The translations under genes and the position numbers were made by a program. Below are positions 5,149-25,751 of a stretch of DNA of 26,478 nt, one piece after another. The stretch's first letter is position 1, and every line of letters starts with the position of its first letter. Below the pieces are notes generated by a model. It did no database searches. It was not told where the DNA came from and worked only from the letters and a program-made list of their open reading frames with translations. Origin of the DNA: a virus; the IMG/VR virus record IMGVR_UViG_3300035157_000557, positions 1 to 26,478 of that record; one strand, 5' to 3'.

Positions 5149-5550
5149 CTAAAAGAACTGTTCTACTCCTATAGGTTCCCCAAAACTATAGTCATACTCC
5201 AAAGCATCAGCACAGACATAGTGTGGATGATGTGTCGTTACACCCAACCTTCCACATAACTCCTTATGATTATCCTCCATGAGTTCGACAGCATATAACA
5301 TGTGATTCAATACATGCTTCTCACTATGATACAAACAGAGTCGTTCCTTTAGTCCAATTAAGAAATTGCCACAACCTGCTGAATTATCAATGAATTTACT
5401 GCTAGGATCTTTCAATAAAGAAACAGCAATCTCATCTATCATCAATTCTACCAACTCAGGGGGAGTGAATACCTCTTGAGTTTCTTTTATTCTCTCATCA
5501 GATCTTTCAACAGATGATCCTGATTTTATATTATGCTTATTCTTTTTCAT
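5149..5550 (-). CDS. DNA methyltransferase, SAM-binding (motif I) half
   Basis: 133 residues with the N-terminal part of a gamma-type N6-adenine methyltransferase: TQEVFTPPELVELMIDEI (about 24-41, motif X-like), FIDNSAGCGNFLIG (motif I, SAM-binding), YAVELMEDN (motif II acidic loop) and CADALEYDYSF (motif III). It ends at GVEQFF, just where the catalytic NPPY motif would follow, and has no motif IV. The gene transcribed just before it begins with exactly that missing part. Start and stop overlap by 14 bases (5537-5550). Inference: the two chains assemble into one enzyme. Alternatively this is a free-standing SAM-binding remnant. It shares a sigma70 promoter and a terminator with its partner. 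Confidence 0.8.
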   Translation of the reverse strand: MKKNKHNIKSGSSVERSDERIKETQEVFTPPELVELMIDEIAVSLLKDPSSKFIDNSAGCGNFLIGLKERLCLYHSEKHVLNHMLYAVELMEDNHKELCGRLGVTTHHPHYVCADALEYDYSFGEPIGVEQFF

Positions 5551-6112
5551 CTAAACATTGAATGTAAGTTGTTATTAAATCATTCTTACCAAAATGATAC
5601 CTACCATTAGTCTGTGTTGCTACCTCCCTAAATTTAGGAGCAAACTCTAGTAGATTCTTAATTACTTCAGGTGATTTAACATTTAGAAAGTGATGTCCTT
5701 TAGCGTAGTGTGTAAAGTTCTCAGTCTTTACTACTCCACTAGGTCCACATCCATACTCACCAACAAAAACATCTGCCTCGAACCTATCTTTATAATCGAG
5801 AAACTCAAAATCTGGATGCTCGGTGTGCATAGGAATCTCGTTCACTCCTACTTCAAATCTCGAAGAGTTCTTTACCTTCCAATACTGTTTGACAGCACTA
5901 ATACCACCAGGAAATGTAGCATGATCGAGATCATCATCAACTTCACAGTGAAGATATGACTTGATTTTATTCTGAGAGGAAGGTTTTCTTACAGAAGTAG
6001 GCAATACAAACCTAATATCATCTGTAATCTCGGACGTTTTATTTAAAAACTTTATAGCAAGATTCCCTCCTACACCATAAGGAGGATTTCCTATAGCAAG
6101 AGTAAATTTCAT
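5537..6112 (-). CDS. DNA adenine methyltransferase, catalytic (NPPY) half
   Basis: 191 residues opening MKFTLAIGNPPYGVGGNLA, so the catalytic motif IV NPPYG (residues 9-13), which holds the flipped adenine, comes at once. FVLPTSVRKPSSQNKI (35-50) follows, a segment I associate with N6-adenine methyltransferases, then a likely target-recognition part. There is no motif I anywhere; it is supplied by the next gene. The start must be this first Met, since no other Met precedes NPPY. A consensus sigma70 promoter ends 6 bases upstream, placing the predicted transcript start at or beside the ATG, and no Shine-Dalgarno is seen. The pair could mark or protect phage DNA. The low-risk statement is a class I methyltransferase fragment. 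Confidence 0.82.
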   Translation of the reverse strand: MKFTLAIGNPPYGVGGNLAIKFLNKTSEITDDIRFVLPTSVRKPSSQNKIKSYLHCEVDDDLDHATFPGGISAVKQYWKVKNSSRFEVGVNEIPMHTEHPDFEFLDYKDRFEADVFVGEYGCGPSGVVKTENFTHYAKGHHFLNVKSPEVIKNLLEFAPKFREVATQTNGRYHFGKNDLITTYIQCLDEKE

Positions 6113-11244: not shown

Positions 11245-11252
11245 TATTTATT
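11245..11252 (-). promoter_or_regulatory. Late-promoter-like AATAAATA box
   Basis: The minus strand reads AATAAATA, close to the T4 late promoter TATAAATA and fitting the relaxed NATAAATA that I recall for T4-like cyanophages. It overlaps the stop of the 2020-aa gene and lies 17 bases before the ATG of the 627-aa fibre gene, one of the few gaps between structural genes. AT-rich sequence makes chance matches likely. Confidence 0.4.
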
Positions 11253-14200
11253 AGGACAGAGCATCAACCTTGGCTGATAGTTCTTTAATTGCTCCAATTA
11301 GAATAGGAACAAGTTTATCATAATTAACTGCCATAGTTCCATCATCTCTAGTAGTAGTTATACCTGGAAGTCCAAGTGCTTCAACGTGTTGTGCGATAAC
11401 ACCAGTATCTCTTTCACCCTCTTTAGTAGATTTTTCATTCCAAGTATAAGTAACACCTTCAAGATTAAGAACTTTAGCAAGAGGATTTTCAATAACTTCA
11501 ATATCTTTCTTCAGAGTTCCATCAGAAGTAGCAAAAGCAGTAATGTCACCACCAACATTTAGATCTCCAAGAATACCAACACCACCACCTACAGTTAAAG
11601 CACCAGTAGTCTTACTTGTAGATGCTTCATTTCCAGTTATAGCAATTTTTCTTGTCTGAATAGTATCAGTATGTAATACATTCCATGTGTTAGCAGTACT
11701 ACCAAGATCCTTCTCAGCATCGCCAGTTGGAAGTAAATCAGTATCAATCTTACCAAGGAATGATATGGTATCAGTAGCAGCATCACCTAGATCTACATTA
11801 CCCTTAAAATTAGCATTACCAGTTACATCTATAAGTCCACCAATGTAAGCGTTCTTACCAATACCAAGACCACCAGCAGCAGTTAAAGCACCAATAGTTG
11901 TAGATGTGGATTGTGTTTCATCAAAGGTCTTAATCTCTTTACATACATGTAAGTTCTTAAGAATACCAACACCACCACTAACATTGAAACCAGCATCTAC
12001 TGTCTCATTTGTACAATTAACAGTTGCTTCTTTTTCATTTAAGAAACTAACAACACCCTTAACACTCAACTTCTTAGTGAGGTTTAGATCAGCATTGAAT
12101 CGTACAGGAGCATTAAATGTAACAGGACCATCAAACTGAGATAAAATCTGTTTAGATGCTCCACCCTCAACGAGTAATCTCTCTTTAACAATTACCTCAT
12201 CAAATACAACACTCAACTTACTTGGATCTTCACCTGTTACAGTTGGGATTGGAATGTCAAATGTAACTTGCTCACCAGAGTCAGCAGAGATCTTAGTGTT
12301 TCCAATATAGAAATCACCCTTATCATTCATACCTGTGTAAACAACAGTACCACAAGATGTTTCTTGTGACTGTGATAAGAATTCTTCTCTTTCAGTTAGA
12401 GTTCTCTTAGAAATCTGAGGAAGACCTGTTGAATAGTTACCTGGACCATAACCAAGGTATTCAAAAGTATGACCAGATGCCCTCAAGATAGATGGTCTTC
12501 TTACTTCAAGTGGTAATGGTCTAATCTTTCTAATTAGAGATCCATTACTATGATTAGCAATATTAGTACCTAAAGCACCACGAATTACTGATATTTTATT
12601 TTCACTAGTTCCTGTTAATGCGGTCTGAGTGACCCTCATTATCTCACCACCAACCTGTATGTAAGATCCCATTGGGAATCTCGATTTAACAGAGTCTCTC
12701 TTGGCATTCTTTACGTTAGTAGTACCAACAGATAAATCAATACCATCACTAACAAAAGTAACTGTAGGAGCAGAAGTATATCCAGCACCTTGATTAGTTA
12801 CTGTTACTCCAGTAATAACACCATCAGTCACAACAGCAGTAGCTACAGCAGCAGTTGTTGGAGTACCACCACCAGTAAACTTAACAGTTGGTGGTTCAGA
12901 TGAATGATATCCATTACCACCAGTTGTCACAGTAACAGCAGTAACCTTATCAGAAGTTAAAGTAGCAGATCCTGTAGCACCATTACCATCAGCAAGTTTT
13001 ACTATAAACGACTGATTAGTAGTAATACCTTCACCTAATTGTAAAGTATCGCCATCATATATTGATATTGCTCTTACACCTAGATTTTCTCCTGCTTTCC
13101 CAGATACAGCATCATTAGCAGATAATCCATGTTTAAGAATATATTGTGGATCGGTTAAAGTAACACCAGTTGTTATAATAGTAAACTGATTAACAGTCTT
13201 AACTTCTTCAACTATGAAATCACCAATATTTTTATCAGTCTTATCAAGGATTCTAATCTGATTTCCCCTGAATAATCCATGAGGAGCAGTTGTATTGACA
13301 GTTGTAGTAACTACATCATCAACTGTTTCAGAAGTAAGAGCACCATCAATAGTAGAATAAGTACCTAAATTAATTACTTTCTGTCCAAGTAAAATCTTAT
13401 CATTATCAGCATGATTATAAATTGTTACTTGTTTTGTTGATGGAGTTGATTTAATACGATAATAACCATCAGTACCTGTTGTTATTCCAGTTACTTGAAC
13501 ATAGTTGTTATCATCTGCTATTGAAAGATGCTCAGATAATATAGCAACTGAAGTATTAGTAGGAGCTCCACCAATACCACCAGCAGAAATAGCAGAAGAA
13601 TCTGGATATAGAACATCACCAGACTCATACCCACAACCTGGTTGTGTAATAGTAATTCCTATTGCTACTTGACTATCAATAGTTATTGAAGCAGTAGCAC
13701 CTTGCCAAGGAGCAGAAGCAGGAGAAACAGAACTAGAGAATAATTTTATGTTATGATAAGTACCATCAGCACCATGTGGAGCAGCATTATTTTGAGTACT
13801 ACTAAAGGATTGTGTTCCATCTACTTTAGTAATATGCTTCAATCCATTTAATCTATGCTCAGAATCTAAAGTTAATATAGGACTCGTAGCACTAGCAGAA
13901 ATATTAGTAATAGTATTAGAAGCACCAAAAGTATCTAAGAATGTGTTTACAGTTTCCCTAGTAATACTCTTCTTAAGATCATTAGTTACAACTTGTCCTA
14001 TAGGAGCTAGTTGAGCATATGATTGTGCCTGTTGAGGGTTCTCTTCTGGATTATCCCTATCCAACTGTGGATAAAGATCAACAATATTCTGATTATATTT
14101 TGATGTGGTAAATTCTTGCTCAATAGCATTATTACCATTTAAAACATATAAGTGATAGATACCATCTTGAACTCTATACTTGTAAGATTTTAATGTTTCT

Positions 14201-17200
14201 ACACGATAGATGAATAAGTTTTCTTTGTTATCATTCCTTTCAAAAGTAGGTACACTTCTATTTCTAGTATGACTTACATTGACATATGTACCAACTGTAA
14301 TTGTATCACCAACTGGTTCACCATCAACTAGTTTTGCTACTTTATAGTTAAAAGTCTTATCATCAATAACACTGTTTACCTTAAATGTTCCATTATATTC
14401 TTTATCAAATAATCCTGTTGGGTTAGTAGAACTCTGTACACCCCTGACAACTATTTGTTCACCTGCTTTTAAATCGTGTGTTCTATCAGATCTAATGGTA
14501 GCAATCTTAGCATTATTGTCATATGTAAGGAAAGAAATAAATCTAGGGTTACGATTATATTCATATCCTGGATCAAAGTTGTTTGGATCTAAATTACCCA
14601 ATCCAATAGTTTTACCATCAATTTCTCTAGTAAAGTCATCATCTTTAACATAATTTACAGAACTAGATTCTTGTAGAATAAATCCATCAGTAGGATCTTT
14701 AGCATCTATTAATTCTTTAGGTACTACGTATCTAACTTTATAAAGTTTTTCATCTAAACTTCTATTATCAGATCTTCTGGTAATGAATGGAATTTCATCC
14801 CCAGTAAACATTGTTGATGGAGTAGCATCTATTAATTTATCAGTAATACCATTACCAAAGTTAACAGTTACGAACCAACCACCAACTACAGTATCTGCTG
14901 TTCCATTAGTATCATCAACTATCCAATTAGTTTCACCAGATCCTTTTGAAGTATAAGTTGCATAATCAAATTGAATTGGATGACCTAATTCACCTGGTCT
15001 CTTATCAGATACTCTACTAATAATCTTTAAATTACCAGCAGCTCTATCTGAAATAGTTTTAATATATTCAGGAGTTGCTAATTCAGAGTTTGCTCTTGAT
15101 GAAGCTATTCTTATTTGATTGGTTAAAAGACTAGAATCAGCAGTATTTGTAATCGCATAATATACTTCATGTGGATCTAATCCTTCAGGCAATCTACCAG
15201 ATTCTGATATAATTCTTATAGATTCACCATTTTGTAATTGATGACCACCAACATCTTCAATAGTATAGATGGCAGGGTTTACATTATTAATAGGATCAGA
15301 ATGGAAAGCAGAAATATAAGTCTTTTCTGAAGTAATTCCATCAAGTAAAGCAGAGGTTTCAGTACTAGTAGTACCACCATTAGACATATAAATGGTAGCG
15401 TTCTGATTACCAATAGTAAGTTTCTCGTTAACCTTAGCACCAATCCTAAAACCCTGAGCGATATCAGATGGTGGAATAGAAGGGTTAGTTTGTCCTAAAA
15501 GATATAATCTCTTCTTTGGACTAGTAGCAAAATCATTCTTATTAATGATTGTTCCGAAACTATTAGTTCCTTTCGCACAACCATCATAAATCTTCTGTGT
15601 TCTAACTTTATCTAACTGTAACCATTCAACGTTAGATTCTCCAGCAGTAATTGCTTTTGGAGCAATTATATTAGTAACAAATCCTTTATTATCTTTCTCG
15701 AAGGCATTCTTTTTAAATCCATCAGCACCTAAAGCAAACTGTCCAAAGTTTGAGTTAGAGTTTGTAACGGAAGCATCGCCACCAGACTTCATTAAGAAGT
15801 GAACATGATAACCAATAGCGAAAACAGATACTATCTGAATAACAGCATCATTAGATAGTTTTACGTGAGTTGTTTTCCATCCATCTCTATAAACTGCTGA
15901 AGACTTTAAGTGATAAACAGTTTCATTAATTTGTGAAGAAGATTCAGATGCTAACTTTTCACCAGTTTGTTTCTGATAAGCAATCTTATCATATGATCTA
16001 CTTGTTGGATTATATTCAGCAAAAGCACGATCATCCTTCTGTAGTGAGACACCAGTAAACTGTGCCACAACCATTGATTTGAAACCTGTTGCTTTATCAC
16101 CATCGGCATGCATACCATTCATACCATAAACTGATCTCAATGAACAGTTAAAGATATATGGAGAAGCACCAGTAACAGTATCAGTCTCAACAGAAATAAA
16201 AGCACCAGCACCACTTAAACCAGCAGAAGGTCCAGCAGGTAAGTTAGGTCTTACATATGGTAACTGATAGGTAAATGTATTATCATCTATTACATTCTGT
16301 ACCTTTCCAGAAATATTATAATCAGTTACATTAACCCCATTAACTTTAATTGGAGTTCCAGAACTTAATTCATGAGGTAATGAAGTTGTAACAGTAACAA
16401 CACTACCAGCAGTAGCACCATCACCAGCAATAATTCTAGATATAGACTTATCATCAGTAGCAAAAGCACCAACAATTTCAAATTCAGGTCTTTGTGGAGC
16501 AAATGCTTCTGGATTTAATGGATACTTTTGAGTAATCTCTCTAGTAGATGCCCTATTAAATGCGTTTGATAACTTACTATAATATACTTGAAGATCTGTT
16601 AATTGATAAGCATCAATAGTATTAACACCATCAGCATATTCAAATACTGTTAATTTATGGTGAGAGAATGATGGTTTAGACTGATTAGTAGAACCAAAAT
16701 CTGTGGGATCAGTATATACTAAAGTACTTTCATCACCATCAAAGATAGTAAACTGCCAGAAATAACAAGAACCAGTGATTCTGAATATAGCAGATCTATC
16801 TACATTATCATCTGTTGGGTTTGGAACATACTTAGGTCTTATTTTTGTCTTTCTTAAATCTAATCCAACAACGGAAGTACCACGAGGTACAACAACACCA
16901 CCATGAACACTATTGAACTTATAAAGTATATTATCTTCCTGTGTTAAATCAAAATTAGAATTTAAAGTTAAAGTAAATGTCTCTGTTGCACCTGCAGTAC
17001 TAACATTACCTGTAGGAGAAACTGCCCTAGCATCACCATTTACACTTTTAATTCCAAATCCTGGTCTATTGTCAATTAAATGCTCACCAGGAAATAATAA
17101 TATAGTTGTTTTTTCAGTTATATCGTTGTCGTTACCTTCCAAATATGAAAATCTAGCAGATTCTATTAACGCCCTTTGTAAAGTCTTAAAAGGTTTAGTT

Positions 17201-17313
17201 AATGAATTACCTTGATTCTCGATACCATCAGTAGCGTCAAGATCATTTGGGTTTACATAAAGAATCCGTCCTTCAGTATTCTTTATAAAATTCTCTAATT
17301 TATTTAAAGGCAT
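11251..17313 (-). CDS. Giant virion structural protein with C-terminal S74 chaperone domain
   Basis: 2020 residues. The N-terminus (MPLNKLENFIKNTEGRILYV) belongs to a large cyanomyovirus structural protein, and the first ~400 residues resemble a beta-helix stalk region. Around residues 1500-1560 lie repeats of the type GYTSAPTVTF. Before the end, the unit TxGALTVGGGVGIxxxxxVGGxI recurs three times. The last 91 residues are an S74 intramolecular chaperone: SDGTLKKDI with Ser1930 and Lys1935 as the likely catalytic dyad, then TGVIAQHVEALG and AIKELSAKVDALS. Such domains trimerise a beta fibre and are then cut off just before the Ser, here leaving about 1929 residues. The start is backed by GGAG 4 bases upstream. 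It is probably a long fibre; its position in the virion is inference. Confidence 0.88.
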   Translation of the reverse strand: MPLNKLENFIKNTEGRILYVNPNDLDATDGIENQGNSLTKPFKTLQRALIESARFSYLEGNDNDITEKTTILLFPGEHLIDNRPGFGIKSVNGDARAVSPTGNVSTAGATETFTLTLNSNFDLTQEDNILYKFNSVHGGVVVPRGTSVVGLDLRKTKIRPKYVPNPTDDNVDRSAIFRITGSCYFWQFTIFDGDESTLVYTDPTDFGSTNQSKPSFSHHKLTVFEYADGVNTIDAYQLTDLQVYYSKLSNAFNRASTREITQKYPLNPEAFAPQRPEFEIVGAFATDDKSISRIIAGDGATAGSVVTVTTSLPHELSSGTPIKVNGVNVTDYNISGKVQNVIDDNTFTYQLPYVRPNLPAGPSAGLSGAGAFISVETDTVTGASPYIFNCSLRSVYGMNGMHADGDKATGFKSMVVAQFTGVSLQKDDRAFAEYNPTSRSYDKIAYQKQTGEKLASESSSQINETVYHLKSSAVYRDGWKTTHVKLSNDAVIQIVSVFAIGYHVHFLMKSGGDASVTNSNSNFGQFALGADGFKKNAFEKDNKGFVTNIIAPKAITAGESNVEWLQLDKVRTQKIYDGCAKGTNSFGTIINKNDFATSPKKRLYLLGQTNPSIPPSDIAQGFRIGAKVNEKLTIGNQNATIYMSNGGTTSTETSALLDGITSEKTYISAFHSDPINNVNPAIYTIEDVGGHQLQNGESIRIISESGRLPEGLDPHEVYYAITNTADSSLLTNQIRIASSRANSELATPEYIKTISDRAAGNLKIISRVSDKRPGELGHPIQFDYATYTSKGSGETNWIVDDTNGTADTVVGGWFVTVNFGNGITDKLIDATPSTMFTGDEIPFITRRSDNRSLDEKLYKVRYVVPKELIDAKDPTDGFILQESSSVNYVKDDDFTREIDGKTIGLGNLDPNNFDPGYEYNRNPRFISFLTYDNNAKIATIRSDRTHDLKAGEQIVVRGVQSSTNPTGLFDKEYNGTFKVNSVIDDKTFNYKVAKLVDGEPVGDTITVGTYVNVSHTRNRSVPTFERNDNKENLFIYRVETLKSYKYRVQDGIYHLYVLNGNNAIEQEFTTSKYNQNIVDLYPQLDRDNPEENPQQAQSYAQLAPIGQVVTNDLKKSITRETVNTFLDTFGASNTITNISASATSPILTLDSEHRLNGLKHITKVDGTQSFSSTQNNAAPHGADGTYHNIKLFSSSVSPASAPWQGATASITIDSQVAIGITITQPGCGYESGDVLYPDSSAISAGGIGGAPTNTSVAILSEHLSIADDNNYVQVTGITTGTDGYYRIKSTPSTKQVTIYNHADNDKILLGQKVINLGTYSTIDGALTSETVDDVVTTTVNTTAPHGLFRGNQIRILDKTDKNIGDFIVEEVKTVNQFTIITTGVTLTDPQYILKHGLSANDAVSGKAGENLGVRAISIYDGDTLQLGEGITTNQSFIVKLADGNGATGSATLTSDKVTAVTVTTGGNGYHSSEPPTVKFTGGGTPTTAAVATAVVTDGVITGVTVTNQGAGYTSAPTVTFVSDGIDLSVGTTNVKNAKRDSVKSRFPMGSYIQVGGEIMRVTQTALTGTSENKISVIRGALGTNIANHSNGSLIRKIRPLPLEVRRPSILRASGHTFEYLGYGPGNYSTGLPQISKRTLTEREEFLSQSQETSCGTVVYTGMNDKGDFYIGNTKISADSGEQVTFDIPIPTVTGEDPSKLSVVFDEVIVKERLLVEGGASKQILSQFDGPVTFNAPVRFNADLNLTKKLSVKGVVSFLNEKEATVNCTNETVDAGFNVSGGVGILKNLHVCKEIKTFDETQSTSTTIGALTAAGGLGIGKNAYIGGLIDVTGNANFKGNVDLGDAATDTISFLGKIDTDLLPTGDAEKDLGSTANTWNVLHTDTIQTRKIAITGNEASTSKTTGALTVGGGVGILGDLNVGGDITAFATSDGTLKKDIEVIENPLAKVLNLEGVTYTWNEKSTKEGERDTGVIAQHVEALGLPGITTTRDDGTMAVNYDKLVPILIGAIKELSAKVDALS

Positions 17314-17350: not shown

Positions 17351-17566
17351 TTAGCTAGTCACATCCCCATCAATAGTCGCCAAATCTTTATACTCAATTA
17401 ACTCAGGATCTGCTTGAGCTGTAACTACCTCTAATACATCCATAAATTGTTTTGTTGTGTCACAATCAACCTTTCTAGTTGTACCTAAATCACTATACAA
17501 AAGAAATTTTCTAGCACAAACATCTATAACAATTTTTTCAACACACTCATTTTCACTAATGTCCAT
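17351..17566 (-). CDS. Unknown 71-aa acidic protein
   Basis: 71 residues starting MDISENECVEKIVIDVCARK and ending TIDGDVTS. A clear TAAGGAG ribosome-binding site, overlapping the stop of the hydroxylase gene, lies 5 bases before the ATG, so the two genes are probably co-translated. The protein is acidic, with Cys at 8, 17 and 35, a likely beta hairpin (KFLLYSDLGTTRKVDCD) and a C-terminal helix. No family is recognised. Being the only partner downstream of the prolyl hydroxylase promoter, it might assist the hydroxylase or fibre assembly, but nothing in the sequence shows this. Confidence 0.72.
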   Translation of the reverse strand: MDISENECVEKIVIDVCARKFLLYSDLGTTRKVDCDTTKQFMDVLEVVTAQADPELIEYKDLATIDGDVTS

Positions 17567-17575
17567 AATAACTCC

Positions 17576-18181
17576 TTATTTTTTTGTAGCATGTATGTTT
17601 TGTACATAATACCAAGTAACAGCAACTCTTTTCTTTCCACCAAAAACTGGTTGACCTGAATGTGGATAACACCAATTTGATGGGAACATTACAGCATACC
17701 CAGCTTGTGGTTTATAAACCTTATGTGGAAATTCTGTTCCACCACCATCAAAACCATCATTTAAATATGTGATAATAGATATTTTTCTTTCATATTCTGG
17801 AAGACCTGGATCTGTCGCAGCATCATGATGGAATTTATATTCTTGACCGTTCTCATATTCCAGTACTTGAATAGCTTCTCTATGACAAGTAGTATCTATT
17901 CCACATGGAACTGGATAATAATTAAAATTACTATGATACGAAGATACTTTTTTATGATATGCTTCCAATCCCTGATTAGTACGTTTATGTAATAATTGTG
18001 TTATTGGATGATTATCATCAAAAGTAGAACCCAAACTAGATCTTATATCTGTTCTTGGTACAGAATCTCTATTATTACCAAAGACTCTTGATTCACCAAA
18101 GGACAAAGTATCAACATACTCATTTACCTTTTTTAAATCTTCTTTATCTAAAATCTTGATTATTTGTATTAAATCATTCAT
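17576..18181 (-). CDS. Prolyl 4-hydroxylase-type 2-oxoglutarate/Fe(II) dioxygenase
   Basis: Uses Fe(II), O2 and 2-oxoglutarate to hydroxylate its substrate, which in this family is often proline. From the ATG at 18181 it has 201 residues. The double-stranded beta-helix core holds the iron ligands His118 and Asp120 (FHHDA) and His174 (CYPHSGQPV), plus Lys184 exactly ten residues after His174 as the likely 2-oxoglutarate anchor, the spacing used by collagen prolyl 4-hydroxylases. ISIITYLND and GGGTEF are also typical. The longer TTG-started frame to 18232 would overlap a sigma70 promoter, so I prefer the ATG. It follows a collagen-like fibre gene full of X-Pro-Gly triplets, the textbook substrate. 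Fibre hydroxylation is therefore likely but unproven; host translation factors or other proteins are alternatives. Confidence 0.88.
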   Translation of the reverse strand: MNDLIQIIKILDKEDLKKVNEYVDTLSFGESRVFGNNRDSVPRTDIRSSLGSTFDDNHPITQLLHKRTNQGLEAYHKKVSSYHSNFNYYPVPCGIDTTCHREAIQVLEYENGQEYKFHHDAATDPGLPEYERKISIITYLNDGFDGGGTEFPHKVYKPQAGYAVMFPSNWCYPHSGQPVFGGKKRVAVTWYYVQNIHATKK

Positions 18182-18203
18182 ATCATATTGAGTATAGAAT
18201 ATT

Positions 18204-18232
18204 ATTATAAAGCATAATTGAACAAAAGTCAA
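18204..18232 (-). promoter_or_regulatory. Sigma70-type promoter for the prolyl hydroxylase
   Basis: On the minus strand TTGACT (18232-18227) and TATAAT (18209-18204) are spaced by exactly 17 bases: 5/6 and 6/6 matches to consensus. It begins right after the stop of the collagen-like fibre gene, and the predicted start near 18197 leaves a leader of about 16 bases before the ATG at 18181. It suggests host-polymerase expression of the hydroxylase, independent of the late fibre genes. Confidence 0.75.
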
Positions 18233-20761
18233 TCAAGTCTTCATTATGTAGCAAAGAGCATAGTATGGTGGCATATTAGCACCAGAAGCAGAAGATCCAT
18301 CATATCCTGTATTACCAGATATTGATATACTTACATTCTCAGGAGAAGTTTGACCAGAAACACTTAACCCAGGTGATGCATTGCCAGTAGTTCCAGATAC
18401 ACTACCACTTGTACCACCACTGGGATTACCAGTAGTTCCAGATACACTAATACTTTCATTCTCAATCCAGAGACTTATTGTTTCTGGATATCCTGAAGTA
18501 CTAGCACTAATTCCAGTTGTATTACCAGCAACACTAGGAGTTCCTGAAGATCCAGAGTTTCCAGTATCTTGGAAACCATACTGTCCACCCCAAGATCCAC
18601 GAGGAACATCATAAGAGTGTTGGTGTGCCGATTCACTTACAGTTACAGTATGTGAGTGAGCACTCTGAGTATATGAGTGGTTATGAGTATTGGATCCAGA
18701 GAATGAGTGAGTGTGATTTCCTAAACTAAAACTATCAGAGAATGAGTGAGTATGATTGGCAATATTCTCTTGGAAAGTATGTTCATGACCATCAGATCCT
18801 GAACCAGAGAAACTATGTCTATGAGATGGAAGAGTAGCAGTAGAACTACCTCCAGTAGCACCAACACTATAACTACTACCAGCACCAAGAACAAATTTAT
18901 CTGTTAGATTTGGAGTACTATTATTTCCATCACATAATACCCATCCACTAGGAATAGCATTTGACGCACCAGACCATAATATAATACCACCTGTAGGAAC
19001 AGAATATAAAACAGAACCAGGAGATCCAGGAGGACCAGCAGAACCTGGAGGACCTGCTACAGTTGAAGGAGCACCAGGAGGACCACCAGCACCTGGAGGA
19101 CCAGCATTACCAGGAGGACCTGCTACAGTTGACGCAGGACCTGGAGGTCCAGCATTACCTTCATCACCCTGATCACCTTTATCTCCTTGATCACCCTTAG
19201 GACCAGGAGGTCCAGCATTACCAGCGTTACCTTGTTGACCAGGAGGACCAGCATTACCTTGAGTACCTGGAGGACCAGAAGGACCAGGAGGTCCACCATC
19301 ACCTTGATCTCCTTTGTCTCCTGGAGGTCCAGCATTACCTTGAGTACCTTGTTGTCCTGGAGGTCCAGCATTACCCTGAACACCCTGATCACCTTGTGGA
19401 CCTGGAGGACCAGCATTACCTGGAGGACCAGAAGGACCAGGAGGTCCAGCATTACCTAAATTACCTTGTTGACCAGGAGGTCCAGCATCACCTTGATCAC
19501 CTTTATCACCTTTATCTCCCTCAGGACCTGGAGGTCCTGCTATACCTTGAATACCTTGAGTACCTTGTTGTCCTGGAGGTCCAGCAGGACCAGGAGGACC
19601 AGCTATACCTTGAATACCTTGTGCTCCAGTTGGTCCAGCAATATCACGAATAACAGACTCTTCATTAGGAACAGCTTCTATTGAACAATTTCCCTGACCT
19701 GCAGACCATCCACCAAGATTAAAATAATGATCCCCAGAAAGAGATCCCATATCATCAGAAGGTCTTAAGTAGAAAGATGCTGTACTATCTGGACGAACAG
19801 GATCACCTTCCATCCATTGAGTACTGAAATAATCCTTAACCCACCATTCTTCTTCTGCTCTACCAAATCCACTACCTGTACCATCTCTCATCCACACCTT
19901 ACGTTGTAGCATGTCGATGACAAAATGAATCTTATTTCCCCAAGTATATCCACTAGTTTTAGCCATTTGGCTAGTACCATGAGATCCAAGAGTACCTCCA
20001 TTAGGTTTAGTATCAAACTGACCATTAAATTGTATGGTAGATCCACCCACTGATATCCAGTTACCAGTAGGACTAGAAGCATCTAGAACTTGTGATACAT
20101 TATTGTTATTATTAAAACTACTCTGACCATGAGTTCCTATACTTTGATCATCTGTAATAAACCAACCAATATAATCAGATGAACTAAAGTTAAGATAAAA
20201 TTCATATAGAATATTAGTATCTAATTTCTTAGTCTTTGCGTCTTGGTGTCCTCCACTCCAATGAGGTTGACCATTCGTAAATGTAACACCACTACTAGAA
20301 TTTGCAGTATCCCATTCAGGAACACCAACAGCACCAACAACAGATCCAGCAGGTCCAATAGGTCCTGTATTACCAGGAGGACCAGCAGGACCAGGAGGAC
20401 CACCGTCACCAGGAGGACCTGCTACAGTTGACGCAGGACCAGGAGGTCCAGCAGGACCAGCAACAGTCGAAGCAGGACCAGGAGGACCTGCTATACCCTG
20501 ATTACCCTGATTACCTTGTTGACCTGGAGGACCAGCATTACCCTGAACACCTTGATTACCTTGATTACCTTGATCTCCTTTAACACCAGGAGGACCAGCA
20601 GGACCAGGAGGTCCTTGAATACCTTGATTACCTTGTTGACCTGGAGGACCAGCATTACCCAAATTACCTTGATCACCCTTAGGACCAGGAGGTCCAGCAG
20701 GTCCCAATCCACCTTCACTTACAGGAACCCATGTATTATTTTGTCTAATTCTAACTGCCAT
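18233..20761 (-). CDS. Collagen-like tail fibre with collar domain and HxH tip
   Basis: 842 residues. The N-terminal ~19 ([18 protein letters not shown]) are probably the virion anchor. Collagen-like Gly-X-Y blocks span 20-142 and 376-583, dense in GPPG and [10 protein letters not shown]. Between them (about 149-370) is a beta-rich, possibly SPRY- or lectin-like domain ([31 protein letters not shown]). After the second block comes a phage collar domain ([20 protein letters not shown], 591-610; [12 protein letters not shown]). Seven HxH motifs follow at 647-715, then Ser/Gly-rich return strands and the usual collar-family ending [10 protein letters not shown]. By analogy with T4 gp37, the HxH sites may bind iron in a needle-like trimeric tip. 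It is probably a receptor-binding fibre, and it is followed directly by the prolyl hydroxylase. Confidence 0.88.
19013..19636 (-). repeat. Collagen-like repeat block 2 of the 842-aa fibre
   Basis: About 208 codons of Gly-X-Y triplets (residues 376-583), mainly GPP, GPA, GNA, GQQ, GDQ and GDK. There are two ASTVAGPPG-type interruptions near the end. Pro is frequent in the Y position, the site used by collagen prolyl 4-hydroxylases. Confidence 0.9.
20336..20704 (-). repeat. Collagen-like repeat block 1 of the 842-aa fibre
   Basis: About 123 codons of Gly-X-Y triplets (residues 20-142). [13 protein letters not shown] units recur, and two ASTVAGP interruptions break the triplet phase. Near-identical units occur in block 2, giving long direct repeats in the DNA. 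Confidence 0.9.
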
Positions 20762-20795
20762 TAATTAATCAAATTGTGGATTATAATCTTTGAGA

Positions 20796-20803
20796 TATTT
20801 ATC
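20796..20803 (-). promoter_or_regulatory. Late-promoter-like GATAAATA box
   Basis: The minus strand reads GATAAATA, seven of eight matches to the T4 late promoter and fitting NATAAATA. It lies in the 40-base gap before the 842-aa collagen-like fibre, 34 bases from the ATG. The flanking ATAAATATCT also occurs before the 112-aa gene near 26100, which supports a shared element. Confidence 0.5.
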
Positions 20804-22781
20804 ATGATGGAACTGGATTTGTAACTCTAGTTCTACTTCTAGGGTATTTAACACCAGAATCTGTTGGTTTACGATTTTTATGATTGGCATGAGGATAAAT
20901 CTGTCCAATCTCTGGTCTTTTCTTTACATATTTAAGAAATCTATTATTTGAATCGGAATGATTATCAGATGGAAAACCTAGATTTCTATATGGAAGAGTC
21001 CAAGGACTAACTGCTGATCCAGTACCAACATTTGGAGTGGAAGTTTCAATTAAATGTTGTAATGCATCTGCCTGATTCATATCAGGTTCTTGTTCTGCCA
21101 AACAAGCAAGTACACCAGCTACTTGTGGAGATGCCATACTAGTACCACTAACTGCTCCATCATAATATGCGGCTCCAAATTTATCAACTCTTGGGTGAGT
21201 ATTTGTATCCCATTGTGAATAATCAGGCTCGTGTATAGCAGACATAATTTCAGATCCAGGAGCATATACATCTATTCTTTCAGTAAAACAACTAGTTTGA
21301 GCTTTTGTTTCTACATCAGTAGCTGTATTATTACCAACTTGTCTATCTATGTTACCCACACATATTGTTGTACCATCAGAAGCTGGGCTTGATCCACGCC
21401 AAGGATAAAGAGCACCAGCATAAGAACCATTTCTAGTCAATGTTATATAATTATTATAATCCTCACCACCAGGAACATCTATTGCAAATCCCTCATTACC
21501 TGCTGCTGCTACAAAAATAACACCATCATCAATCATATCTTCTACCTCATTTAATATAGAACTATCAATATAAGGAACCTTATAACCAGATAATCCATAT
21601 AAAGAATAAAAGATATCAGCAAATCCATTCTGTTCTAAAGTAGCATGAACCTGTGGGTCATTACCAGCGTATTGATCTAAATCTACTAAACTATTATTAC
21701 GATACTTTATTCCTCTCAAACGCCAATATCCATCACTTGAAGTTGAAGGATATTTAATAGATACACCATAACCCCAACTAGCATTTACAACTGTTGGATT
21801 TCTTCTACCAGTCTCAGGATTAATTTCTTTATTCTTATGCCAATATCTAATATAATCAAACATATAATCAGTCCAGTTTGGTACATTAGCACCAGCATCC
21901 TGAAAATGCATATAATAGATATTAGAATCTCTTGCCCAACCTTGTGTATTACCAGCAACAGTCCCTGCTACATGAGTTCCATGATTTTTACCAGAAGTTG
22001 AATCAGCAAAATGTAAAGTAGAACCAGTCATACCATTATTCCAATACTTATACTCTGATGGATGAGTAGTATATCCTAAAATATCTTTATATACATGCCA
22101 ATTAAATTGAATAACTCTATTACCAGCTACTCTTGGATGTCCATTATTATTAGTAACCAATGCTTGTGATCCATCTAATAGATCAGGTTTAGTTGTTGGA
22201 TTAACTTCTGCCCAAAACTCTGGATGATTTGGATTAATATGTTCATCAGTTATAATAACATCTACATTTTTACCAGAACTAGTAGTAGAAATTGTCTCAT
22301 CCAATAGATAATGACTTCCAGCACCACTAGTACCATTAACTCCCCAAGGAGTATCATTAGCATTACCTGGAACACCAGGAGAATATTCATCCACAAAATT
22401 TTTACATGTATAATTACTTCCCTTTATTACTCTAGGCAATCCCCATTGTTTATGTCCAGCAGAGAAGTTTGCTCCACCATTACGATACCAAGCAATATCC
22501 TTAGCAAAGGTATCAGTTTGATTCCAAAATTTTTCATACGTACCTAAACGTTCACTTACAGGAAGACCAATATCAGCAACTCTAGGATCATTACGTAGTT
22601 TTTCTACTTCATCTTCTGTCAGATAGTAATTAGTAGATCTACTAATAGGTCTTCTTAAGGCAACTTCAACCTTTCTATCAGGTACATTATCAAGGGAACT
22701 AGATTCCTCAATATCAGTATAAAAGTCATCAATATTCTGACCCTTTTTTATAGTAACCTTATATTCTCTAGTATCTTCCAT
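20802..22781 (-). CDS. Subtilisin-like serine protease (S8), virion-region
   Basis: 659 residues with an intact S8 triad: Asp179 (VIITDEHI), His267 (NHGTHVAGTVAG) and Ser548 (SGTSMASPQVAG), with the oxyanion Asn429 in AAAGNEG. Residues ~7-75 resemble an I9 propeptide (YKVTIKKGQNIDD and NYYLTEDEVEKLRNDPRVAD), the self-inhibiting chaperone of subtilases, so an auto-activated zymogen is likely. There is no signal peptide, arguing against secretion. The C-terminal ~55 residues are basic and Pro-rich. The gene lies between two collagen-like fibre genes, its start immediately after the stop of the upstream one. Inference: a virion protease for fibre maturation or host-surface degradation. The inserts around 200-260 and 340-420 are longer than in simple subtilisins. 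Confidence 0.9.
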   Translation of the reverse strand: MEDTREYKVTIKKGQNIDDFYTDIEESSSLDNVPDRKVEVALRRPISRSTNYYLTEDEVEKLRNDPRVADIGLPVSERLGTYEKFWNQTDTFAKDIAWYRNGGANFSAGHKQWGLPRVIKGSNYTCKNFVDEYSPGVPGNANDTPWGVNGTSGAGSHYLLDETISTTSSGKNVDVIITDEHINPNHPEFWAEVNPTTKPDLLDGSQALVTNNNGHPRVAGNRVIQFNWHVYKDILGYTTHPSEYKYWNNGMTGSTLHFADSTSGKNHGTHVAGTVAGNTQGWARDSNIYYMHFQDAGANVPNWTDYMFDYIRYWHKNKEINPETGRRNPTVVNASWGYGVSIKYPSTSSDGYWRLRGIKYRNNSLVDLDQYAGNDPQVHATLEQNGFADIFYSLYGLSGYKVPYIDSSILNEVEDMIDDGVIFVAAAGNEGFAIDVPGGEDYNNYITLTRNGSYAGALYPWRGSSPASDGTTICVGNIDRQVGNNTATDVETKAQTSCFTERIDVYAPGSEIMSAIHEPDYSQWDTNTHPRVDKFGAAYYDGAVSGTSMASPQVAGVLACLAEQEPDMNQADALQHLIETSTPNVGTGSAVSPWTLPYRNLGFPSDNHSDSNNRFLKYVKKRPEIGQIYPHANHKNRKPTDSGVKYPRSRTRVTNPVPS

Positions 22782-25751
22782 TTAAGCCTCTGCCTGAATA
22801 AGGTCTAAACTTACTAAAATACTACGTGAAGTACTATCTTTATTAACAACCCTAGCATATATGGTAGTATTTGGAGTACTTTCATCATTCCACCCAAATA
22901 CTCCTGGTGACATCACATATGTACCACCATTAGCTGCCGTAGAAATAACTTCAGCAATAACACCACTACCAGGTAGAGGATCATTTCCTTCTGCCCTACC
23001 ACCATTACCAATATTATCTGAGGTTCTAGAAGCTTGGTTTGTATATAAAACAATCCAACAGGGAAAACTAACTGTAACTTTTAAAAGATGATATGCTTTA
23101 AATCCAGTAATACTTAAATCACCATATCCATTAGCAGCAATTGATGATGTTGTAGCTGAAGCAGTACTTCTTGTGGCAAGACTACCTCCTCCTCCACCAC
23201 CACTAACAGATTCCCATGCAGGTGGTGTACTAGAACCTTTACTTACTAAAACATAACCAGAAGTTCCATAATCCACTGATCCTACATGCCCTATTCCAAA
23301 AGCACCAGATCTATTAACACAGAATCTTTGAGTACCAGTATTACCAGTTTGAGTTAACTGATCAATAACTCTTATTACAGAATCAGTATCACTACTTCCA
23401 TACACATCAATTCCATATGATTCATTACCATCAGAATTATCAAATTGTAGATGTCCACCCTCTAAAGTTGAATTGACTCTCTTAAGAAGAGTTTCACCAT
23501 TCGATTTAATACGAAGTGTTTCCCAATCTAAAGATCCTTGTGCGAAAAATCTTACATCTCTTTGAGTAGTCGCATCACTAGAAGCAAATATTCCAAAATA
23601 TTGACCCTGATAATTACCATTAAAAAGGAATGGTACATTAGGATCTGTTTCACTACCAGGAATATAAACACCACCACCAGCTGTAATGTTAAATCTATCA
23701 GTTCCGTCTAGATTTACATTAAAGTTTGATGTGACTGAACCAGTATCAATTATTTCAGCATTACTATTACCTTCAGATATCTTATCTGTAGCACCTCCTC
23801 CACCACCAGATGAAGCCATCCATCTGATACCAGTTGATGTAGAGGTTAATACATAACCACTTGTTCCAGCTGAATTTTGATCATCCTTAATAGTAGCAGT
23901 TGATAAATCTAATGTATTCTTAATACTGACACCATCATCAGGATGAATAGTCATATGAGTAGTATAAGGACTATTCTGTTTTTTGAATACCATCAAACCT
24001 CTGGTTTGAAAGTCCCAATCAAATGTTTGTGGATGATTCATTATCCACTTATTAACACTACTAGCGTAACCTATACTGGATTTGAAATTTAAAGTACCAG
24101 AGCTAGGTGCTCCAAACATTATTGAAGTATCTTGTGTCAAATTTAAACTATTGACCATTGGTTCCCAAACACAATCTCCCCAATTATTATTTGGATCTCC
24201 AAATATAGTTAAACTCGGACCACTACCTGTATATGCCGTATCGTTAGTTACTTTAAGTAGAGAACTTCCAGCAAATGATCCACTATTATTATATTGAAAT
24301 TCGGTATCATTTCCACCAGCATTAGAAGAACCTGGAGGACCAGCAGGACCTGGAGGACCACCAGCACCTGGAGGACCAGCAGTTGTTGAAGCAGGACCAG
24401 GAGGACCAGCATTACCAGGAGGACCAGAAGGACCTGGAGGACCTGCTACAGTTGAAGGACTACCTGGAGGACCACCAGCACCTGGAGGACCAGCATTACC
24501 AGGAGGACCACCAGCACCTGGAGGACCAGCAGGTCCAGTACTAGTATCCCATGATAATTGACCAGCAGTATTTGTTTTTAAATAAGAATCAACTGTTGGA
24601 TTCGATTGAGGAAGACTATAAACTTGATTTGTAGTTGATTGACTATTATTTTGTAGTTCAATATACTTAGTGTTAAGACCATTATAAAGTTTAAGTCTCA
24701 CACCCTGACCAGCTACAGATGAATTACCAAACAACTCTACAAGGTTTGTAGGTGTAGTTGTGTCATATTGACCTATCTTTACTCTCTGAAGATTATCAGT
24801 TCTAACTACAGCATATCCTGGATCAGATTGGTTATCAATAACCTCAACATTGGTATTACCTTCTTCTATCTTATCAGTAACACCACCAGCACCTGGAGGA
24901 CCAGCAGTTCCTGGAGGACCAGCATTACCAGGAGTTCCTGGAGGACCGCTAGGACCAGGAGGACCACCAGCAGGTCCAGGAGGACCTGGAGGACCAGCAA
25001 TACCACCAGAACCTGGAGGACCAGCAGGTCCAGCACCTGTTGTTGTACTTGTAGTATCGTACCAAAGATCACCATCACAAACTGTCCAACCACCACCTGG
25101 TGTAGTTGTTGGATCTACATTTTGATAGAATTTATTTCCATAAGCATTACTTGTTGATCCGATTCCAATTGTATCATTGTTGACTACAAAGATTGGACTT
25201 TCACAACTTCTTTCTACACCAGTTTGTTTATATTGTTTTACACCATCAATACTTCCACCACCACCAGATCCAGGAGGTCCAGCAGGACCAGGAGGACCAG
25301 CAACTGTTGATGCAGGACCAGGAGGACCAGCAGGTCCAGGAGGACCACCAGAACCTGGAGGACCAGCAACTGTTGACGCAGGACCAGGAGGACCAGGAGG
25401 ACCACCAGTACCAGCACCACCAGGAGTACCTGACTGTCCTGGAGGACCAGGAGGACCAGGAATACCAGGAGGACCACCAGCAGGTCCAGGAGGACCAGGA
25501 ATACCAGGAGGACCACTAGCAGGACCAGGAGCACCTGGAGGACCAGGAGGTCCAGCAACAGTCGAAGGAGCACCTGGAGGTCCAGCAGGACCAATTAAAC
25601 CAGGAGGACCACCAACACCAGTTCCACCAACAGGACCAGGAGCACCTGGATCAGGTACTCTTCTCCAAACATATCCATCCCATCGCCAAGTAGCGGTTCC
25701 AAAAACATATGTGGCACCTGGTTGAGGATTTTGTGGAAAATTTATAGGCAT
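22782..25751 (-). CDS. Collagen-like fibre protein with interspersed globular modules
   Basis: 989 residues. The N-terminus ([20 protein letters not shown], then [11 protein letters not shown]) resembles fibre-anchor starts of cyanomyoviruses. Collagen-like blocks lie at 36-163, 240-290 and 406-474, separated by globular parts. A module starting TDKI-EGN-N-E-ID occurs at 292 and 655. Linkers of the type SGYVLxSxxxG...W, followed by poly-Gly hinges or collagen, recur near 388, 631 and 831. The C-terminal ~135 residues form a beta-rich tip ([20 protein letters not shown]). Block composition is almost pure GPP, GPA, GSG and GAG, with very little charge, unlike the 842-aa fibre. It is likely a flexible trimeric virion fibre. 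The stop abuts the subtilase start, so the two are translated together. Proline-rich triplets make it a plausible hydroxylase substrate. Confidence 0.85.
24330..24536 (-). repeat. Collagen-like block 3 of the 989-aa fibre
   Basis: About 69 codons (residues 406-474) of GPP, GAG, GNA and GSP triplets, with two STVAGPPG-type interruptions. It links the module ending QLSWDTST to the following globular part. Confidence 0.88.
24882..25034 (-). repeat. Collagen-like block 2 of the 989-aa fibre
   Basis: About 51 codons (residues 240-290) of GPP, GPA, GTP and GNA triplets. There are short Gly-Gly slips but no STVA interruption. Confidence 0.85.
25263..25646 (-). repeat. Collagen-like block 1 of the 989-aa fibre
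   Basis: About 128 codons (residues 36-163), the longest block, dominated by GPP, GPA, GIP and GSG. Three copies of the STVAGPPG interruption are present. The strong GGN/CCN pattern also leaves a long spurious open frame on the plus strand. Confidence 0.9.

Follow-up and report, generated by a model that had tools for sequence, protein, structure and literature searches.

Why would a marine phage carry a gene for a prolyl 4-hydroxylase (P4H)-like enzyme directly behind a gene for a collagen-like fibre? This question is raised by a 26.5-kb IMG/VR virus record, a piece of the genome of a T4-like marine phage whose nearest isolates are Kyanoviridae (e.g. P-SSM2), and the whole of this stretch is termed the window below. 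On its minus strand, the window encodes a P4H-like 2-oxoglutarate (2OG)-Fe(II) oxygenase of 201 amino acids (aa; 17576-18181) and two collagen-like fibre proteins, fibre A (842 aa, 18233-20761) and fibre B (989 aa, 22782-25751). The answer favoured here, to which a probability of roughly 0.7 is assigned, is that the phage encodes a collagen prolyl 4-hydroxylase of its own, which would hydroxylate proline in the Y position (Y-Pro) of the Gly-X-Y triplets of its collagen-like fibres before the chains trimerise. This answer is built on the genes, their motifs, the predicted fold, the conserved neighbourhood and a correlation between enzyme and Y-Pro, from which we infer an activity, a residue specificity, a timing and an effect on the virion.

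The open reading frame (ORF) of the oxygenase (17576-18232) opens at a TTG codon. Because close relatives begin with MNDLIQ or a similar sequence, comparison of the proteins places the start most likely at the conserved ATG at 18181, which gives the 201-aa product and leaves a gap of about 50 bases after the stop codon of fibre A. Apart from this start, the coordinates of the initial annotation hold, and its description of the gene right after the fibre as a 2OG/Fe(II) dioxygenase is borne out by a match to PF13640 with an E-value of 9e-16 and 59 bits against a curated cut-off of 27. The HxD...H motif with a Lys ten residues further on, which had also been pointed out, is formed by the Fe ligands H118, D120 and H174 and by the 2OG-binding K184, each of which is invariant across 43 relatives. 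In the same relatives, R47 and R132 are invariant and S49 is retained in more than 90%, and these residues align with Arg and Ser positions of P4Hs. In P4Hs, a conserved Arg and the R-x-S region serve peptide substrates. The enzyme consists of a single PF13640 domain and carries no glycosyltransferase domain. It falls in PHROG 61, as do other cyanophage 2OG-Fe(II) oxygenases, a broad family whose function is uninvestigated (PMC9602691); however, the subfamily of the window enzyme is distinct by a hidden Markov model (HMM) of its own, in which members score 253-347 bits and other PHROG 61 oxygenases at most 59, and it is located in fibre clusters.

A profile search of the Protein Data Bank (PDB) mostly matched prolyl hydroxylases, among them the Bacillus anthracis P4H (E-value 6e-16), an algal P4H (1.6e-9), the chlorovirus P4H 5c5t (3.4e-9) and human collagen P4H alpha-2 (5e-6). 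The AlphaFold model of the oxygenase (predicted local distance difference test, pLDDT, 91.6) found its best Foldseek match in 3gze, the algal P4H in complex with (Ser-Pro)5 (TM 0.70), and the other top matches included PHD2 (the HIF prolyl hydroxylase), 2jig and 5c5t (PBCV-1, TM 0.64). A prolyl hydroxylase is thus well supported as the fold and the probable chemistry, and the substrate class is not readable from the fold alone, the match leaving collagen P4Hs and other prolyl hydroxylases unseparated.

The candidate substrates lie next door. Fibre A, which also matches PHROG tail-fibre and collar families, contains 103 Gly-X-Y triplets across five tracts of at least five, and fibre B contains 73 across ten such tracts, whereas shuffled fibre sequences gave a mean of about one triplet and a maximum of 11. 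Both proteins pass the cut-off of the Pfam Collagen family PF01391 (118 bits and 35.7 bits). Proline occupies Y in 30 of the 103 triplets of fibre A and in 38 of the 73 of fibre B (39% for both together), and GPP occurs 28 and 29 times, respectively. The two fibres, their tracts and their abundant Y-Pro are real, as first described, but the "hundreds" of triplets were a generous count, the total being 176 with tracts of at least five and 192 with tracts of at least three.

A scan of viral contigs with the enzyme yielded 63 relatives, in most of which collagen ORFs are located upstream of the enzyme, 0-4 genes away. Among 66 non-redundant P4H loci, at least 20 Gly-X-Y triplets were found in 53 and at least eight in 60. 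Because most P4H loci in this count had been selected through the enzyme itself, a second survey was anchored on the N-terminus of a giant fibre protein (2020 aa, 11251-17313, minus strand), an anchor that presupposes neither P4H nor collagen. This N-terminus matched 460 phage records, and the survey comprised 192 loci with at least 2.5 kb upstream, the window itself being one of the 15 that carry P4H. Collagen was present in 13 of these 15 loci against 14 of 39 P4H-free loci of the same clade, and in none of 138 loci of two P4H-free clades. Within 12 complete isolate genomes, P4H and above-threshold collagen occur together in P-SSM2, ACG-2014f and S-CAM7, and neither occurs in the nine others, of which S-SSM7 produced a single borderline collagen hit (E 9.9e-4). 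When the S-CAM7 enzyme was used for scanning, only three close relatives were retrieved. The co-occurrence of the two gene types in related phages, which had been put forward initially as a check, is upheld by these mostly 0-4-gene distances and by the joint presence or absence in the isolates. One scan covered 84,980 prokaryote genomes, and relatives of the enzyme turned up there only on a contig of a SAR11 single cell and on two archaeal metagenome-assembled-genome contigs (L613, L614 and L615), each adjoining collagen genes. These three genes are probably phage DNA binned with hosts, and a cellular origin of the enzyme was rejected on these grounds.

The residue content of the collagens connects them with the enzyme more closely than their position does. 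Pro-rich tracts occur in 8 of the 13 anchored collagen loci with P4H and in none of the 14 without, eight of the latter being rich in Gly-X-Lys. For a test of the Y position, IMG/VR phage collagens were chosen by a DNA pattern for GPxGPxGPxGP (four GP triplets with Y free), and P4H-positive loci were grouped into 14 clusters at 75% enzyme identity. In these X-Pro-rich collagens, the median Y-Pro amounts to 43.5% for the 14 P4H clusters versus 0.8% for 84 P4H-free loci, which were not clustered by kinship (p 3e-7), and AT-rich P4H-free loci (n=41) have a median of 0.4%. A fitting pair on the fibre tree is formed by the enzyme-less locus L107, with 45% Y-Lys and 4% Y-Pro, and its neighbouring P4H-positive group, with 14-45% Y-Pro; in L088, where a carbamoyltransferase and another oxygenase occupy the P4H slot, Y-Lys reaches 49%. 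Base composition was rejected as the cause of the Y-Pro difference by the GC content of the anchor gene, which is alike (about 0.34) in P4H-positive Pro-rich and P4H-free Lys-rich loci. Because Y-Pro, the site modified by collagen P4Hs, is common beside the enzyme and nearly missing from X-Pro-rich fibres without it, the link between enzyme and substrate is supported, and it now rests on sequence comparison beyond position alone.

The surveyed loci are related, and this was corrected for via the fibre tree. Phylogenetic generalised least squares (PGLS) on this tree gave an increase in Y-Pro of +0.147 (p 0.002 at the fitted lambda of 0.70). Several results weigh against the proposed link. PGLS at lambda 1 (pure Brownian motion) was not significant, and X-Pro also rises with P4H, so that the signal extends beyond Y. 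Independent pairs on the fibre tree were too few for significance, none opposing the prediction for Pro-rich collagen, and a version with Y-Pro thresholds had a similar outcome. Fourteen of the 53 P4H-positive collagen loci contain less than 8% Y-Pro, some of them being rich in Y-Lys or Y-Gln, and a few Y-Pro-rich phage collagens without a P4H of the window enzyme's family were seen (L325, L440, L462, L529 and L541), from which it follows that the enzyme is not strictly required. At the level of structure, human PHD2 and an EF-Tu hydroxylase match almost equally well. Overall, the phylogenetically controlled signal is of moderate strength. The initial suggestion that the phage post-translationally modifies its fibres is partly supported, being favoured by the co-occurrence and by the tracking of the enzyme by Y-Pro, and tempered by the roughly one quarter of P4H collagen loci that are Y-Pro-poor and by the moderate phylogenetic evidence. 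Inside the phage group of the window, the relation holds mainly in one direction, fibres rich in Y-Pro being accompanied by the enzyme but not every enzyme locus having such fibres; outside this group, some phage collagens are rich in Y-Pro in the absence of such an enzyme. The broader notion that every Pro-rich phage collagen depends on P4H was rejected, since many GPPGPP loci of other phages have no P4H. The idea that a related oxygenase is concealed in the exceptions was rejected as well: PF13640 genes were found in 4 of the 12 P4H-free contigs with the highest Y-Pro versus 8 of 24 low ones, without enrichment, and those read fall outside the subfamily of the window enzyme.

In the mechanism proposed here, the P4H would be produced together with fibres A and B and, in the cytoplasm of the host, would use Fe(II), O2 and 2-oxoglutarate to hydroxylate Y-Pro in Gly-X-Pro-Gly runs of chains that have not yet trimerised. 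In animals, enzymes of this type stabilise collagen through the hydroxylation of proline. The cyanobacterial cytoplasm supplies O2, iron and 2-oxoglutarate. The hydroxyproline formed may lead to stiffer triple-helical shafts or may provide an attachment site. Hydroxylation of Y-Pro before folding fits the behaviour of the B. anthracis P4H, which hydroxylates (PPG)n with Y-Pro favoured according to passages of PMC8968730 that cite Schnicker and Dey 2016, and that of animal collagen, in which hydroxylation-type modifications come before trimerisation (PMC8968730). The B. anthracis enzyme (3itq, 5hv0), from a species with the collagen-like BclA, is likewise a stand-alone bacterial-type P4H and the closest solved relative by sequence, but it is cellular, whereas the window enzyme is phage-encoded and adjoins fibre genes. 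The vCPH of PBCV-1 (5c5t) is also a virus-encoded P4H of like size and fold, although it belongs to a eukaryotic algal virus and shares 21% identity with the window enzyme. The mimivirus L230 lysyl hydroxylase offers the case of a virus modifying its own collagen-like proteins by a 2OG oxygenase, as stated in passages of PMC8968730 citing Luther 2011; in contrast with the window enzyme, it acts on Lys and has a fused glycosyltransferase.

Other explanations of the locus have to be weighed against self-hydroxylation of the fibres. A genuine protein hydroxylase could be directed at another target, be it the neighbouring fibre of about 2000 aa, some other protein of the tail or a protein of the host, for example EF-Tu or a ribosomal protein. 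It would agree with this that the giant fibre gene comes after P4H in most relatives, that P4H is kept in loci with few Y-Pro, and that Foldseek also matches PHD2 and the EF-Tu-bound P4H from Pseudomonas; yet 177 surveyed loci without the enzyme retain the giant fibre gene, and the tracking of the enzyme by Y-Pro is left unexplained, so that another target is considered rather unlikely. Alternatively, fibre genes and oxygenases may move as exchangeable modules, the Pro-rich lineages carrying the oxygenase by chance with no chemical link. The pairings, however, are non-random and run in the direction predicted by the chemistry of the enzyme, the 14 P4H clusters differing from the 84 loci at Y, and we judge such hitch-hiking to be quite improbable even though independent switches on the tree are few and the slot is exchangeable (a carbamoyltransferase plus oxygenase in L088, similar ORF pairs in L084 and L087, and glycosyltransferases in ACG-2014f and S-CAM7).

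A third proposal, that a P4H-fold enzyme acts on a small molecule or on a surface sugar or lipid in the manner of PiuC, or is an auxiliary metabolic gene regulating 2-oxoglutarate, draws on the annotation of the P-SSM2 gene as piuC, the name of an iron-uptake oxygenase, and on the discussion of cyanophage 2OG oxygenases as auxiliary metabolic genes with a possible effect on 2-oxoglutarate or nitrogen metabolism (PMC9602691). The PiuC structure 9qn0 nevertheless matches at TM 0.55 versus 0.60-0.70 for P4Hs, and wherever it was located the enzyme family sits in fibre clusters. Both the PiuC and the metabolic readings, regarded as very improbable, were rejected for this weaker structural match and for a neighbourhood that is structural rather than metabolic.

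Further genes of the window, where all genes are on the minus strand, were also noted. Between the two fibre genes lies a subtilase (S8) gene (20802-22781; PF00082 E 1.8e-27; phrog_9158) with Asp/His/Ser motifs; it has homologues in other cyanophages, where they belong to clusters of structural genes. The gene of a DUF7294 protein (17351-17566; PF23966 E 1.6e-18) separates P4H from the giant fibre gene, and the order of P4H, DUF7294 (or another short ORF) and a fibre of about 1900-2000 aa is repeated in relatives. Scanning for the late promoter of T4 type, TATAAATA, was uninformative, since all matches had one mismatch and they were spread along the whole sequence. Elsewhere, at 5149-6112, two neighbouring overlapping ORFs resemble pieces of one DNA-methyltransferase gene, perhaps split, on a by-eye reading for which no search was made.

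Other enzymes were also observed beside collagen fibres. Two further 2OG-oxygenase families, B1 and B2 (e.g. L110:5512-6102 and L110:7680-8285), adjoin Lys-rich (Gly-X-Lys) collagens in all of the loci seen first (6/6 and 5/5, respectively). A B1-anchored scan (L562-L606) gave 45 loci, 38 of them with nearby collagen tracts, of which 28 are Lys-rich; in a few B1 loci, the collagens are rich in Y-Gln instead. P4H is also present in six of the seven B1-anchored loci that are Y-Pro-rich, and among non-redundant B1 loci a Y-Pro content of at least 15% was found in 3 of 6 that have P4H and in 1 of 23 that lack it (Fisher p 0.02). Both families resemble P4H structures weakly, and their neighbourhood suggests that they may be lysyl hydroxylases. 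In L088 (7471-9734), a NodU-like carbamoyltransferase and a PF13759 oxygenase fill the P4H slot of relatives, downstream of Lys-rich collagens, and L084 and L087 contain ORF pairs of like size. In ACG-2014f and S-CAM7 (L005:6875-7954 and L006:5952-7933), glycosyltransferase genes are situated between the collagen gene and P4H, and the Y position of the collagen is Thr-rich; fibre glycosylation is possible in these two phages. It can be imagined, though we hold it only tentatively and with more doubt than belief, that marine T4-like phages possess a general self-modifying fibre system, in which exchangeable cassettes would match each collagen-like fibre to an oxygenase that fits the residue at Y (P4H for Gly-X-Pro; B1 and B2 for Gly-X-Lys) and would sometimes include glycosyl- or carbamoyltransferases building on the hydroxyls.

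Phage oxygenases of the 2OG superfamily are already known as genes, as is their structural resemblance to prolyl hydroxylases (PMC9602691, PMC12774648); according to the cyanophage study, their functions had not been the subject of specific investigation (PMC9602691). Bacterial and viral collagens have been described as showing no preference for Y-Pro, which was tied to missing prolyl hydroxylases (PMC3368898). In a survey of Baltic Sea water, viral P4HA genes were abundant, their viral use was called "cryptic", and tail-fibre collagen was mentioned (PMC9301287). A literature search, outside of which most subscription journals lay, found no paper in which the prolyl hydroxylase of a bacteriophage is linked to the collagen fibres of the same phage. 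Virus-encoded collagen hydroxylases are already known from PBCV-1 and mimivirus. The enzyme gains a concrete, adjacent candidate substrate that bears a signature at the residue level, and this in relatives of the sequenced isolates P-SSM2, ACG-2014f and S-CAM7, and, if the proposed hydroxylation is true, some genes filed as metabolic would be virion-assembly enzymes.
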